From the NCBI RefSeq assembly GCF_020423045.1, contig NZ_CP081943.1:3038001-3102000 (forward strand): 64,000 bases of DNA. Reading direction: 5' to 3'. The notes beneath the pieces were generated by a model. The model was not told the origin of the DNA. It worked only from the letters and a program-made list of their open reading frames with translations, and did no database searches. This DNA is from Pseudomonas sp. MM213 (GTDB lineage: Bacteria; Pseudomonadota; Gammaproteobacteria; Pseudomonadales; Pseudomonadaceae). Made by a program: the position numbers and the translations under genes. Positions 25,408 through 30,161 of this stretch are shown piece by piece; within the stretch, counting starts at the first letter, position 1, and every line of letters begins with the position of its first letter.

Positions 25408-26421
25408 ATGATACGCCTAACGACTGGAAACATCCTAGAGTCCACCGCGGACGCAATAGTTAACACTGTTAACTGCGAAGGCTATATGGGCAAAGGCATT
25501 GCATATCAGTTCAAGCTAGAGTTTCCGCTAAATTTTGAAAGTTATGCTCAAACTTGCAAACAGAAGCTTTTGAGACCAGGAAAGCTTCATATATTCAAAG
25601 AAAACGGAAAGATAATTATAAATTTCCCAACAAAAGACAAATGGAGAGCAAAGTCTAAATACGAATACATAGAGGACGGCTTAAAAGCATTAAAGACGGC
25701 TATAAAAGAATGGAAAATCGACTCTATATCCATTCCACCTTTGGGCTGTGGAAATGGCGGATTAGAATGGGGAAAGGTCAAAGAGATTATCATTTCCGAG
25801 CTTATCGATGAGAGCAATATAGATATTACTCTTTATGAGCCAAGCAAATCCTACAAGAGCCAACCAAAAGTAGAACCTAGTCTTTCTCTATCACACTATC
25901 TTGCAATGGAAGTAAAAAACCATTTAACTAGATTTTCTAGATTCAGATTGCAGAAAGCGTTATTCCTAGTTGATTTTTTAAACAACGACAATTACTTTCG
26001 ATTTGATGCTCATAAATTCGGCCCATACTCTCACTCTCTAGATATCGTTTCAAAGCAAATATCCGAATACCAGGACTACCACAAATCGGATACAAAAACC
26101 GCCCAAGAACTTTTAGAAAAAAAACTACAAAGCGACAACTTCTACAAATCAAAGACATCACAAGCACACCCAATAAACATGGCAACAGCACTAGTTAACA
26201 ATATAGATACAGATTGGGAGCTAGAACTAACAACCAGCATACTCTATGTAATCCATGAAAAACAAATAACCACCACGCAAGAAATCCATAGCACAATATC
26301 GAACTGGACCGAAAGAAAAAACGAATTATTCAAAGAAGCTGACATTGACAAAAAAATACACGAACTAGTAGAAAGCAAACTAATCACTATAGATTTTTTA
26401 AACAACATAACAAAAACATAA
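25408..26421 (+). CDS. darG: DarG-like macrodomain antitoxin
   Basis: DarG removes ADP-ribose from DNA and can also bind DarT directly. The 337-residue protein has an N-terminal macrodomain (about residues 1-150): LTTGNILESTADAIVNTVNC, MGKGIAYQF, Lys76 in NFPTKDKWRAKS (the position of the catalytic lysine in DarG macrodomains) and IPPLGCGNGGLEWGKV. Residues 165-337 form a separate, Lys-rich helical domain (FRLQKALFLVDFLNNDNYFR, FGPYSHSLD) that probably holds the toxin. It is AT-rich like darT, three bases downstream of it, so the pair is co-transcribed. Confidence 0.85.
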   Translation: MIRLTTGNILESTADAIVNTVNCEGYMGKGIAYQFKLEFPLNFESYAQTCKQKLLRPGKLHIFKENGKIIINFPTKDKWRAKSKYEYIEDGLKALKTAIKEWKIDSISIPPLGCGNGGLEWGKVKEIIISELIDESNIDITLYEPSKSYKSQPKVEPSLSLSHYLAMEVKNHLTRFSRFRLQKALFLVDFLNNDNYFRFDAHKFGPYSHSLDIVSKQISEYQDYHKSDTKTAQELLEKKLQSDNFYKSKTSQAHPINMATALVNNIDTDWELELTTSILYVIHEKQITTTQEIHSTISNWTERKNELFKEADIDKKIHELVESKLITIDFLNNITKT

Positions 26422-26523
26422 ACACATTAAACTTAAGCAATCTTTATGCTAAATATTACCGAACGGCCTTAAGCCACTACTTGACCACAATGTCTCTGCC
26501 CCATACGCTCTGCCACTGGTGCC

Positions 26524-26545
26524 TAAGAAACACCTCACACAGCGG
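26524..26545 (+). repeat. Upstream copy of the C4 target (a1/b1-like)
   Basis: TAAGAAA (26524-26530) and TCACACAGCGG (26535-26545) repeat, with one change, the pair at 26701-26725. In the P1/P7 immunity loci such a copy precedes the c4 RNA and is also complementary to it. A weak hairpin with a T-run (CCGC...GCGGCTTTTTT, 26551-26577) follows. The rest of 26422-26611 holds no gene. Confidence 0.6.
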
Positions 26546-26611
26546 ACTGACCGCACCCGACAGTAGCGGCTTTTTTGTGCCTTCGGTTTCCCCGTGCGCA
26601 TCAAAAACTCT

Positions 26612-26696
26612 GTTATGCCGGGAGTGGGCGAATAAAAGACCCGAAAGGGGAATATGTCCGGCCCTCTGTGTGGGGTTTCTTAACTCCCGGCACCCA
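26612..26696 (+). ncRNA. C4-like antisense RNA
   Basis: The segment is closed by a perfect ten-base helix, TGCCGGGAGT (26616-26625) with ACTCCCGGCA (26683-26692), and contains a CCC-GAAA-GGG hairpin at 26640-26649. Inside lie two unpaired segments, CCTCTGTGTG (26663-26672) and TTTCTTA (26676-26682), exactly complementary to CACACAGAGG (26716-26725) and TAAGAAA (26701-26707) downstream. That is the design of the phage P1/P7 c4 RNA, which is cut from the icd-ant transcript and blocks icd translation and hence antirepressor synthesis. Processing points are not visible, so the ends are approximate. Confidence 0.75.
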
Positions 26697-26700
26697 GCCC

Positions 26701-26725
26701 TAAGAAAGCTGACATCACACAGAGG
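26701..26725 (+). promoter_or_regulatory. C4 target (a2/b2-like) covering a ribosome-binding site
   Basis: TAAGAAA and CACACAGAGG are each perfectly complementary to the C4-like RNA. The AGAGG at 26721-26725 is the ribosome-binding site for the ATG at 26734, eight bases on, so pairing in trans or cis would stop translation of the leader ORF. Confidence 0.65.
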
Positions 26726-26733
26726 TAAAGGAT

Positions 26734-26826
26734 ATGCCTAAAAATCTCTCCTTCTATCCGAAGGAAATCCGCGTTAGCTGCTTCATTTTCTGCGCGCCTC
26801 CATCCCTGGAGGCTTGCGATGTCTGA
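26734..26826 (+). CDS. 30-codon leader ORF (icd-like position)
   Basis: This short ORF reads MPKNLSFYPKEI... and ends TGA at 26826, overlapping the BRO-N start codon (26819) by eight bases. It has a good ribosome-binding site, the one buried by the C4-like RNA. In P1, icd occupies this position and its translation is needed for ant translation. The sequence itself resembles nothing I recognise; its role may be only to couple translation. Confidence 0.55.
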   Translation: MPKNLSFYPKEIRVSCFIFCAPPSLEACDV

Positions 26827-27352
26827 TCCATACATCCCCACCGTCTTCATTCGCCAAAACCTCGACCTTCACGCTCTCCTCCTAGAAAACCAGCCATGGT
26901 TCTGCGCCCGAGACCTGGGGCGTTTGATGGGTTTCCATCTGAGTGATCGCGTAGTCAGCAAACTGGATGAGGATCAGCGGCACACGCTGCTAATCGACTA
27001 CCACGGCCAACCGGAAAAGCGGCTGATGCTCAGCGAGTCAGGCGTGTATGCGTTGCTGGTTTATCACTACGCGCCAGGAAATCGGTTATTGCGTGAGTGG
27101 TTGACCCATCAAGTGGTCCCAGCCTTACGCGATGCGGGGCAGTCTAAAAATGCTGATCGACCGATGTTGAGTTTGTTGGACTGGCCAGAGATGTCATTGA
27201 GTCTGTTGCATTGGCAGGATGAAGGTTGGATTCGGCTGCGAGACATGCCCTTTCTGCTACTCGGTCGCACACGGCGGCGCGTGCCAACGGTTAAGCCTTG
27301 GTGGAGAAAGGTTTTGGAGGCGTTTCAGTCTTCAAAGCATTCTGTTGGTTAG
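26819..27352 (+). CDS. BRO-N domain antirepressor-like protein
   Basis: This 177-residue protein has a BRO-N DNA-binding domain in its first 110 residues: NQPWFCARDLGRLMGF, SKLDEDQRHTLL, LMLSESGVYALLVY and REWLTHQVVPALRDAG. The C-terminal tail (WPEMSLSLLHWQDEGW...) is short and ends basic. BRO-N proteins are common in phages and serve as antirepressors or regulators. It has its own GGAGG at 26807-26811 and overlaps the leader ORF. The C4-like RNA upstream makes a P1-type ant role plausible, but the targets here are unknown and no other phage structural gene is present. Confidence 0.85.
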   Translation: MSDPYIPTVFIRQNLDLHALLLENQPWFCARDLGRLMGFHLSDRVVSKLDEDQRHTLLIDYHGQPEKRLMLSESGVYALLVYHYAPGNRLLREWLTHQVVPALRDAGQSKNADRPMLSLLDWPEMSLSLLHWQDEGWIRLRDMPFLLLGRTRRRVPTVKPWWRKVLEAFQSSKHSVG

Positions 27353-27434
27353 GTTTTGTAGGACCGACCGAAAGAAGCGTCGGCATTTTCTGTAGGAATT
27401 TTCGTAGACAGTCGTAATGGCCACTCAGTATCGT

Positions 27435-27455
27435 CCGAGGGTTTTCAGCCCTCGG
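27435..27455 (+). promoter_or_regulatory. Hairpin just upstream of the HNH gene
   Basis: CCGAGGG and CCCTCGG pair perfectly around TTTTCAG, ending seven bases before the ATG at 27463. No ribosome-binding site is visible in the space left, so translation starts beside or through this structure. Confidence 0.5.
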
Positions 27456-27462
27456 CGATTCT

Positions 27463-28176
27463 ATGGACACGGAAAAGAGCAACAGCGATTGGAGTGACGC
27501 GGAGATTCAGGCTGCGGTCGACGCCTATCTCAGCATGCTGTCACGCGAGCAAAGCGGTCAGAAGGTCAATAAAGCACACGAGAATCGGGTCCTGCGCGAA
27601 GGTGCTTTAGCGGGTCGCACCAAAGGCTCGGTTGAGTTTCGGATGCAGAACATCTCTACCGTGTTGGTCGAACTCGAACGAGATCGCATTCAGGGATACA
27701 AACCGGCTAAGAACGTCGGCGCGAATGTTGCGCGCAGCATTCGTGAAGCGCTGAACGTAACGAGTACTTTAACGCTGGAAGACTTTGCCCCGACCGCCGA
27801 TGAGGCAACGCTAGAACAACGTGCTGCCAAACTTGAGAAGCAACCGTTCAAAGGCGAGCCGAAGGGGATTTTGAAACCACAACAAGTACCAAGTTCGGGC
27901 AACTCTTTTGTACGCGATCCTGAGGTTAGAGCCTGGGTGCGCAACGAGGCCAAGGGTATCTGCGAGGGTTGCGGAAAACCGGCGCCGTTTGAGAAAGACG
28001 GCAAGCCGTTTCTTGAAGTTCATCACGTTAAGCATTTGGCGCAGGAAGGTTCGGATCGCCCGAGCAATGCCGTGGCGCTGTGTCCGAACTGTCATCGACG
28101 TTGCCACCATTCGAGTGATCGGGATGAGTTCACTGCTTCGCTGTTTCAGAAGGTGAAGCGGTTGAAGTTTGAGTGA
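27463..28176 (+). CDS. HNH endonuclease, restriction-type
   Basis: This 237-residue protein has a C-terminal HNH nuclease domain: a CEGCGKP zinc knuckle, then LEVHHVKHLAQEGSDRPSN with the catalytic histidines, then LCPNCHRRCHH. The N-terminal 110 residues (WSDAEIQAAVDAYLSMLSRE, then RTKGSVEFRMQNISTVL) form a helical domain seen in predicted McrA-like endonucleases that cut modified DNA. No methyltransferase lies beside it, which fits a type IV or stand-alone nuclease. It is flanked by the BRO-N and bacteriocin genes, in a defence-rich setting. The ATG was used although no good ribosome-binding site precedes it. Confidence 0.8.
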   Translation: MDTEKSNSDWSDAEIQAAVDAYLSMLSREQSGQKVNKAHENRVLREGALAGRTKGSVEFRMQNISTVLVELERDRIQGYKPAKNVGANVARSIREALNVTSTLTLEDFAPTADEATLEQRAAKLEKQPFKGEPKGILKPQQVPSSGNSFVRDPEVRAWVRNEAKGICEGCGKPAPFEKDGKPFLEVHHVKHLAQEGSDRPSNAVALCPNCHRRCHHSSDRDEFTASLFQKVKRLKFE

Positions 28177-28358: not shown

Positions 28359-29543
28359 GTGGCTGGCAACAAGGACATTCCGCGGGTTAAGAATCCGCCC
28401 TCCGGCGATGGGCATCACGTCACCTATCGCTACATGACTGCCACCGAGTTGGCCGAGCGGGACGCTAGACAAAAAGCCTATGAGGCCATGCTGGCCAGGC
28501 AAGACGCCTTCGAACGCGGCCGTCAGGTCATAGCGGAAAAGCAAAGACCCACTCAAGCTGGATGTGTCTTCGCCAAGTCCTGCAAGCTGCCGGACGCCAT
28601 CATCGATTACTCGAATCCCTCAGAGATGGTGCCGACCGATAGCCTGAAAGACTACGGTGACCTGATTCTGCTAGGTGCTCGCGAAGCGGACGAATCAGGC
28701 GCGGTGCCACTGAAGAAGATCAGTGGCACTGCGATTCCCGCTGGGCTGGGTTCTCTCGCCTTGGCCGGCTCGGCATTCGCCGCTGCTCCTGTGGTTGCGG
28801 CGAGCGCCGTAACAGCAACGCTGGTTGGCCTTGTTGCGCTGTTCACACCATCGAGTCTGGGCGACAGCTCGCTTTACACCGACGACCAACTCCGTGCGCT
28901 CAAACAGGCCCGTACCCGCGTTCGCCTGCGGGTCGAGCAACAGACTGACGGCAGCCTCAAGGGATATGGTTTCTACACCGGCAAAAATCGCGATTGGGAA
29001 ATGGTTGATGTCGTGCAGTTCACATTGCGTGGCAGCCAGCAGGTGGCTGACCTGGGTCACGGCATTGAACTGATCTGGACGCCGGCCGTGGATGGCTCCG
29101 ACATCCTGGGCATTCCGGCGCTGGAGGCTGCCCCGCAAGCGCCACATATCTGGGTTTACCCGCCAACGAAAGCGGCTGACAGCATCATCGTGAACCCGGT
29201 TTATCCGCCGGAGTACAAGGATTTCATTCTGGTGTTCCCGGCGGATTCGGGGATTAGGCCGGTTTATGTTGTGGTGAGTGTTGCTGACCACAATTACCAT
29301 CCCGCACCGAAGGGGCTAATTGCCTTTCCCGATGCAACGAGAGCGAAACGTAAGACCCCGCTAAAAGGCGGCGGTGGCCTTCGAAAACGATGGAAAACGT
29401 CAAAAGGGACAATTTTTGAATGGGACTCGCAGCACGGCACTGTGGAGATGTACGACAAACGCGGCCGCCATCTCGGAGAATATGATCCGACTACCGGCAA
29501 GCAAACCAAACCTGCAGACAGCTCCAGGAGTGTGGAACCATGA
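28359..29543 (+). CDS. S-type pyocin-like bacteriocin with colicin E3-type rRNase domain
   Basis: The 394-residue toxin has an unusual short N-terminus, then a conserved segment (GCVFAKSCKLPDAIIDY, residues near 68-85), an Ala/Gly-rich hydrophobic stretch (about 125-165), an S-type pyocin domain (about 180-305, DDQLRALKQARTRVRLRVEQ and PQAPHIWVYPP), and a C-terminal E3-type domain. There, EWDSQHGTVE supplies Asp356, His359 and Glu363, and Arg390 is in ADSSRSVEP: all four residues known to matter in colicin E3, which cuts 16S rRNA at the decoding site. The start is GTG with AAAGGA upstream. The stop overlaps the next gene (ATGA). It lacks a recognisable receptor-binding region, so the delivery route is uncertain. 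Confidence 0.88.
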   Translation: MAGNKDIPRVKNPPSGDGHHVTYRYMTATELAERDARQKAYEAMLARQDAFERGRQVIAEKQRPTQAGCVFAKSCKLPDAIIDYSNPSEMVPTDSLKDYGDLILLGAREADESGAVPLKKISGTAIPAGLGSLALAGSAFAAAPVVAASAVTATLVGLVALFTPSSLGDSSLYTDDQLRALKQARTRVRLRVEQQTDGSLKGYGFYTGKNRDWEMVDVVQFTLRGSQQVADLGHGIELIWTPAVDGSDILGIPALEAAPQAPHIWVYPPTKAADSIIVNPVYPPEYKDFILVFPADSGIRPVYVVVSVADHNYHPAPKGLIAFPDATRAKRKTPLKGGGGLRKRWKTSKGTIFEWDSQHGTVEMYDKRGRHLGEYDPTTGKQTKPADSSRSVEP

Positions 29544-29806
29544 TTTATGTAATCGAAGCCTTTCACAAACATAACGAACTGCTGGCATTCGAAGTGGAGC
29601 TACCGGCTGGGTGCGATCAGGAAATTAAAAACATTATGGGTTGGACTGCTGAGCAGCAAGGATGGGAAGGATACGACCTTACGGACGAGCAGCTTGGAGC
29701 CTTGGAGGCTTTGTTGGGAAAAAAGTGTATGACGCAGCCTACCTATTTCAACTTAGCTGCAACGCTTGAACATATGAGTGGGACACCAATTTGGCACCTC
29801 CACTGA
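29540..29806 (+). CDS. Probable immunity protein for the rRNase bacteriocin
   Basis: This 88-residue cytosolic, acidic protein overlaps the toxin stop codon by four bases. It is rich in Asp and Glu (EVELPAGCDQEIKNIMGW, YDLTDEQLGALEALLG) and recalls the DUF7683 small proteins found behind pyocin-type nucleases. It does not look like the classical colicin E3 immunity protein. Immunity is inferred from the position, overlap, acidity and size. The absence of a separate promoter guarantees joint expression. Confidence 0.75.
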   Translation: MIYVIEAFHKHNELLAFEVELPAGCDQEIKNIMGWTAEQQGWEGYDLTDEQLGALEALLGKKCMTQPTYFNLAATLEHMSGTPIWHLH

Positions 29807-30055: not shown

Positions 30056-30161
30056 GGGGACGGTGTGTTGCCGTTGATTTTGTGGTGCTTTAAAAGAGTG
30101 GGTGCAACCCGCCTCGCCTCCCGCTATTAATACCCTCCCCACTCAAGGACCCGAGCCCGCC

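Follow-up and report, generated by a model that had tools for sequence, protein, structure and literature searches.

In the c4-icd-ant immunity region of phages P1 and P7, a leader stands before an antirepressor-type gene. The accessible part of PMC5320573 describes the processing of the C4 RNA by RNase P and the roles of its b′ and a′ segments, and it reports C4-derived RNAs in bacteria (Acinetobacter). In the Gifsy-1 prophage, blocking the translation of orf45 lowers the activation of anrP (PMC4825925, in the portion available). Another RNA family, sRNA-Xcc1 (RF02221), has no clan, and we found no experimentally shown target for it in the literature examined, which was available in part. Its Xanthomonas relative is a real RNA of 88 nt by RACE and approximately 100 by Northern blotting (PMC2996969), computer predictions list many targets for sRNA-Xcc1 (PMC2996969; PMC12189769), and in Xanthomonas integron cassettes sRNA-Xcc1 lies upstream of symE (PMC12444791). 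These statements refer to the accessible sections of the three papers, and those of the last state no antisense role towards the adjacent gene.

The locus described here lies in Pseudomonas sp. MM213, in a window of 64 kb (the whole stretch of DNA that was analyzed), and all its features are on the + strand. A promoter-like site, TTGACC-17-TACGCT (26481–26509), has an expected transcript start at approximately 26516. It is followed by a near-copy of the target (26524–26542), made up of a1 (TAAGAAAC, 26524–26531) and b1 (CACACAG, 26536–26542), and by a putative three-part attenuator (26542–26576) composed of GCGG (26542–26545), CCGC (26551–26554), GCGG (26566–26569), and a T run (26571–26576). 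The antisense RNA, of sRNA-Xcc1 type and with a CACCC tail, occupies 26617–26699; its closing helix counts ten pairs in the letters of the sequence (26616–26625 with 26683–26692) and is annotated within the RNA as 26617–26625 with 26683–26691. The b′ segment CCTCTGTGTG (26663–26672) in the third hairpin is complementary to b2, CACACAGAGG (26716–26725), while the a′ segment TTTCTTA (26676–26682), between the third hairpin and the closing helix, is complementary to a2, TAAGAAA (26701–26707); the upstream a1 and b1 are complementary to the same a′ and b′. Within the downstream target (26701–26725), b2 covers the GAGG of a ribosome-binding site (RBS), 8 bases 5′ of the ATG of a 30-codon leader ORF (26734–26826). 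This ORF overlaps by 8 bases the start of the BRO-N gene (26819–27352, ATG at 26819), which encodes an antirepressor-like protein of 177 aa. The helix, the two complementary segments, the leader ORF, its 8-base overlap, and the upstream near-copy had all been proposed in a sequence-only reading of this DNA, and each was confirmed to the base.

The same reading had called the RNA C4-type and had asked for a search with the C4 model, and on this point it did not hold. In a search of 26400–26900 with covariance models, RF01695 (C4), RF03163 (c4-a1b1), and RF01394 (isrK) gave no match at E ≤ 10. RF02221 matched 26617–26699 over the full model length with 71.8 bits, against a gathering cut-off of 53, and was the sole Rfam match at gathering scores in the whole 64 kb. 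C4 membership was ruled out in both directions, with no RF01695 match in 20 loci having RF02221 RNAs and no RF02221 match in 20 C4 loci (both at E ≤ 0.01). As judged by these models, the window RNA is a member of sRNA-Xcc1 and not of C4. Our own model R1, built from 36 sequences, scores the window RNA at 86.5 bits, this RNA being part of its training set. The RNA fold covaries: 96.9% of the cells are paired, whereas shuffling gives 81.3% and sliding no more than 52.7%, and 85 cells are changed on both sides, compared with 26.3 in shuffles. The core of the second helix, AATA.AA.ACC...GG.AATA, is nearly invariant, and TAT stands just 5′ of the RNA start in 46 of 136 unique RNAs. The closing helix and the CACCC tail fit an RNase P substrate, and the 5′ end is probably generated by RNase P.

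The pairing of the RNA with its two targets was assessed by comparing the antisense half of each RNA with its own upstream and downstream targets and with the targets of other loci (swaps). A first swap test on 52 loci, in which near-identical loci were mixed, was replaced by clustered tests. From 153 matches, including some RNAs below the Rfam cut-off, 59 representatives with less than 75% identity were retained after loci with short flanks and near-duplicates had been dropped. A run of at least 7 paired bases was present downstream in 41 of these 59 divergent loci, compared with 9.8% of the swapped pairs, and upstream in 48 of 59, compared with 15.5%, leaving 18 loci downstream and 11 upstream with no run of 7. 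None of 10,000 permutations reached the observed sums, and a smaller set agreed (22/33 and 17/28 representatives downstream, 28/33 and 23/28 upstream). Conservation of the complementarity in homologous loci, the lack of which the sequence-only reading had named as refuting, was thus borne out. Of the 40 loci with a run of at least 7 and a recognizable start codon, 26 have a duplex overlapping positions −16 to −5 relative to that codon. Ranked by energy, the own downstream target came first in only 6 of the 59 loci and within the top 5% in 14, and the own upstream target in only 10 and in 23, respectively.

The window alone is insufficient as evidence of pairing, because shuffles reach the observed runs and other stretches have lower duplex energies. 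Among 5000 dinucleotide shuffles of the target, 4 had a run of at least 10 downstream and 212 a run of at least 8 upstream, and the duplex energy of the window was reached by 7 (downstream) and 37 (upstream). Among the best 15 of 12,792 window stretches, 12 (approximately ten places besides the RNA's own complement) have a lower duplex energy than the real target, and a single duplex energy was rejected as proof. The decisive evidence is comparative: across divergent loci, the complementarity is kept while its letters change, together with a covarying fold. This bears on the proposal for Xanthomonas and Xylella, based on published target predictions (PMC2996969 and PMC12189769, in the parts available), that the RNA regulates unlinked genes in trans, the adjacent match being secondary. 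If the RNA were a broad regulator, one would expect an unchanging seed, whereas here the adjacent complementarity persists with changing letters across divergent loci and in front of different downstream genes; we consider this explanation very unlikely.

Between the upstream target copy and the RNA, the order is GCGG-CCGC-GCGG-T6. A terminator-like hairpin lies 5′ of 93 of the 136 unique RNAs, compared with a mean of 5.4 over 20 rounds of shuffled upstream regions, and a competing copy of the hairpin arm precedes it in 82 of 136, compared with 0.5 in shuffles. When 26516–26575 is folded alone, the first two segments pair and form an antiterminator; with 26522–26542 held occupied, the computed fold switches to the terminator. 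Because the terminator stem is short (four pairs, below the thresholds of a stricter scan, which did not report it), the attenuator effect is one that we infer. As to the promoter, TTGAC is present at the corresponding position in 29 of 38 type-1 loci having the CCTAAG box, and TTGACC-17-TACGCT is too weak for a consensus scan. The leader ORF overlaps the next start in 21 of 24 type-1 loci, the overlap being exactly 8 bases in 17.

We propose, as the likely best explanation, an attenuator–antisense–leader switch over the BRO-N gene. A transcript starting at approximately 26516 would carry the target copy with the attenuator, the antisense RNA, the second target over the leader RBS, the leader ORF, and BRO-N. 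The antisense RNA would be cut out of this transcript, its 5′ end probably by RNase P, and would pair in the cell with the leader RBS, as the conserved complementarity suggests. An untranslated leader would leave BRO-N untranslated through translational coupling, to which the overlap points. On the upstream copy, the antisense RNA would free CCGC, so that the terminator could form and transcription would be cut short, as suggested by folding and hairpin conservation. The short terminated RNA, carrying a target copy, may act as a sponge for the antisense RNA and restore BRO-N, in the manner of IsrK for anrP. The c4-icd-ant logic proposed from the sequence alone, namely an antisense RNA, an RBS target, an upstream copy, and a leader overlapping an antirepressor-type gene, is supported, with an RNA of another family.

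BRO-N is probably an antirepressor-type regulator, on the basis of matches to Pfam Bro-N (1.9e-10) and to the PHROG anti-repressor Ant (2.1e-12). Its predicted structure is confident in the N-terminal domain only (mean pLDDT 78.5). The best PDB match of the model is a granulovirus Orf22 domain (E = 0.014), with none at E ≤ 0.001, and this predicted-structure match says nothing firm about function. Across 26 BRO-N proteins, 28 residues are invariant. Some BRO-N matches contain a stop codon.

The sRNA-Xcc1-type RNA was found (E ≤ 0.1) in only 24 of 80 related BRO-N loci, which were the named ones among 135 confirmed loci and all belong to Pseudomonas. Another leader box, of 158–195 bases with one truncated, is shared by 53 of the 56 loci without this RNA type (examples among loci L071–L150: L086, 9783–9962; L123, 9852–10011), and the six of these 56 loci that were scanned against Rfam gave no match at gathering scores. 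This leader keeps an upstream box, GGTGCCTAAGAAAC, and in 35 aligned loci has CTCTACGT approximately 25 bases ahead of a complementary region, ACGTAGAG, at the RBS, which allows alternative pairings in this region. Because the key letters of the leader are almost constant, covariation lends it no support. A leader of this kind agrees with a switch acting only in cis, also for the window locus, in which pairing of the segments inside a single mRNA would conceal or uncover the RBS, with no part for a separate small RNA; the folded precursor indeed pairs b′ with b2 in one molecule. However, the conserved closed body of three helices with its tail resembles processed C4 RNAs, the related RNA of Xanthomonas is small and stable (accessible text of PMC2996969), and the presence of a further target copy joined to a terminator fits an RNA that acts in trans. 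We therefore regard the purely cis-acting alternative as unlikely and retain the attenuator–antisense–leader switch. A related leader with 77.6% identity over 68% of 351 bases precedes a BRO-family gene beside the mercury-resistance region of a P. aeruginosa plasmid (NZ_CP093017.1, L293 6247–6756).

Elsewhere in the same genome, other BRO-N genes follow C4 or C4-like RNAs. At least 18 C4 (RF01695) matches are present in this genome, none of them in the window; from 1835 first-look candidates, 18 were scored, each of which matched. One C4 RNA of 80.6 bits lies directly 5′ of a BRO-N paralog (59.6% identical) and has a 9-base complement just ahead of the start. A third BRO-N gene (50% identical) has 5′ of it a C4-like RNA that scores 38.3 bits and so falls short of the cut-off (45), and which is itself preceded by a c4-a1b1-like match (37.5 bits, cut-off 46.7). 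Two RNA families, C4 and sRNA-Xcc1, are thus found at an equivalent position 5′ of genes for related proteins, both other BRO-N genes found having a C4 or C4-like RNA there. At this third gene (L312, 5907000–5909200 of the genome), sub-threshold C4, c4-a1b1, and isrK matches stand in the order of a C4 region. The ORFs following the other 17 C4 matches do not resemble BRO-N, with no BLAST match to it below E = 0.06, and three ORFs after C4 that were scanned gave one DUF6124, one DUF3077, and one without a family. In the 18 C4 loci (L294–L311, genome G000), the longest complementary run downstream is 6–9 bases each, as raw counts without a control.

The BRO-N locus occupies a conserved chromosomal site, because matches to the ribonucleotide reductase small-chain gene of the window recur in 75 of the 80 loci and matches to the downstream gene at 30102 in 70. 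Among the nine ORFs between 21936 and 31148, Pfam identified no phage structural gene, and none of the 587 phage records matching BRO-N covers 80% of it in one place. The earlier suggestion of domestication agrees with these observations. A decaying remnant of prophage immunity that has no present function would also account for a phage-type gene such as BRO-N and for the RNA core found in at least 120 stretches of viral contigs (exact core pattern). Against it, many Pseudomonas species retain BRO-N, the leader overlap, the fold, and the pairing at a single chromosomal site by the ribonucleotide reductase gene, and the invariant BRO-N residues point in the same direction, so that we give this interpretation little credence. 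The accessible part of PMC2647930 yielded nothing on the BRO-N locus.

The sequence-only reading had placed the locus between DarTG and an HNH nuclease and had suggested that release of BRO-N might turn on defence genes, such as the HNH nuclease, or bacteriocin genes. The DarTG neighbour is incidental: neither DarT nor DarG was matched in any of the 80 related loci, and DarTG was rejected as a partner. The HNH protein (27463–28176, +) is type IV restriction-like, with matches to Pfam HNH and, in PADLOC, to mREase_IV (8.1e-33) and the phage-defence candidate PDC-S36. It was matched in 71 of the 80 loci (55 co-directional with coverage of at least 45%, 15 on the opposite strand and partial, and one co-directional and truncated). 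The proposed wiring would fit the position of BRO-N directly 5′ of HNH in at least 24 of the 32 genomes, among 149, with an HNH match at E ≤ 1e-50. However, the highly conserved element of approximately 70 bases upstream of HNH (27391–27458, +), which contains TGTAGGAATTTTCGTAGACAG and the palindrome CCGAGGG..CCCTCGG and gives no evidence of control by BRO-N, stays with HNH. Its core is present in 60 of the 80 loci, and 31 of 149 genomes have the core pattern, each a single time; in 30 of these it directly precedes an HNH match on the same strand, in some cases a partial one. The element also occurs in G030, which has no BRO-N match at E ≤ 1e-10, in G448 and G503, whose single BRO-N match is elsewhere, and in G427, where the matches listed include a single weak BRO-N match, given without its place. 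The HNH promoter was therefore rejected as an operator for BRO-N to act on, and HNH has its own conserved promoter/operator region, which does not require an adjacent BRO-N; control of defence or bacteriocin genes by BRO-N is thus unproven. With pyocin matches in only 14 of the 80 loci and a pyocin immunity gene in 5, we consider this wiring doubtful. TGTAGGA was dropped as a shared operator, with 22 occurrences on the + strand of the window; it may belong to interspersed repeats. At 28359–29806, the window carries an S-type pyocin that has a Cytotoxic domain, as well as a DUF7683 gene weakly matching pyocin S6-type immunity proteins.

RNAs of the sRNA-Xcc1 type extend beyond this locus. RF02221 matches were found in at least 14 of 57 relatives, at least 62 of 298 genomes of the genus, and at least 26 of 369 genomes of the class (12 of the 26 above the cut-off), which are lower bounds, part of the first-look candidates having been scored in most genomes; none was found among the candidates scored in 14 control genomes. 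Of 80 viral-contig stretches searched with model R1, 79 contained RNAs of this type, 83 in total. A survey of the genes downstream of the RNA covered 45 loci from relatives and the class. An ORF of at least 60 aa followed the RNA in 40 of these loci, and 35 of the 40 (all but the five Pseudomonas BRO-N loci L002, L004, L006, L007, and L009) were scanned with Pfam, giving Bro-N 8, SymE 4, Rha 1, KilA-N 1, GerE 1, and Sel1 1, the remainder having no Pfam family. In four loci (L017, L019, L042, and L043), sRNA-Xcc1 RNAs lie directly 5′ of SymE-type genes and have 7–8 bases of complementarity near the start. RNAs in this position could account for the symE cassettes found in integrons of Xanthomonas.

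On balance, we lean towards regarding sRNA-Xcc1 as a second, structurally distinct C4-type class, a portable silencer of the adjacent gene (BRO-N, SymE, Rha, KilA-N, or small unknown proteins) acting through attenuator and RBS targets. In Pseudomonas, it would have been domesticated at a chromosomal BRO-N locus and exchanged with an undescribed third leader type, while BRO-N paralogs use C4. If so, sRNA-Xcc1, an RNA investigated for a possible part in the virulence of plant pathogens, would gain a concrete mechanism, the antisense control of its own neighbour, and the Xanthomonas 'virulence' sRNA would be an antitoxin-like partner of symE. Different RNA scaffolds with the same logic before paralogous antirepressor-type genes in one genome would make the evolution of phage immunity RNAs after domestication testable. 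What would be new is the mechanism for sRNA-Xcc1, the replacement of one RNA scaffold by another upstream of BRO-N genes, and the domesticated context, and the primary sRNA-Xcc1 report may already note the likeness to C4.

Compared with the described systems, the window RNA shares its family, by covariance model, and its fold with sRNA-Xcc1, and stands before BRO-N, whereas the RNA of the Xanthomonas integron cassettes stands before symE (available part of PMC12444791). With C4 (RF01695) and the c4-icd-ant region of P1/P7, it has in common three helices, a′ and b′ in the same places and complementary to the RBS of the next ORF, and an upstream a1/b1 copy, here without a match to the RF03163 model. 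It differs from C4 in giving no model match, in a second helix interrupted by the conserved internal loop AATACAA / GAATA where C4 has a plain hairpin, and in an upstream module carrying the GCGG/CCGC/GCGG attenuator. The layout and the PHROG match suggest the leader–antirepressor arrangement of P1/P7, here outside a phage or prophage as judged by Pfam for the nine ORFs between 21936 and 31148. The isrK-STnc1160-orf45-anrP region of Gifsy-1 likewise comprises a promoter, a short terminated RNA, a processed RNA, a leader ORF, and an antirepressor (PMC4825925, in part); there, in contrast, the short form of IsrK is an activator, AnrP is the protein encoded, and the setting is a prophage, and here 26400–26900 has no RF01394 match at E ≤ 10. 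The CI RNA of P4 (seqA-cI-seqC), compared by description only, is also an antisense RNA between two targets, with pairing leading to termination (same source, same portion). By analogy, the window RNA would resemble the C4, IsrK, and P4 CI immunity RNAs in its working, through RBS occlusion and putative attenuation at the upstream copy.
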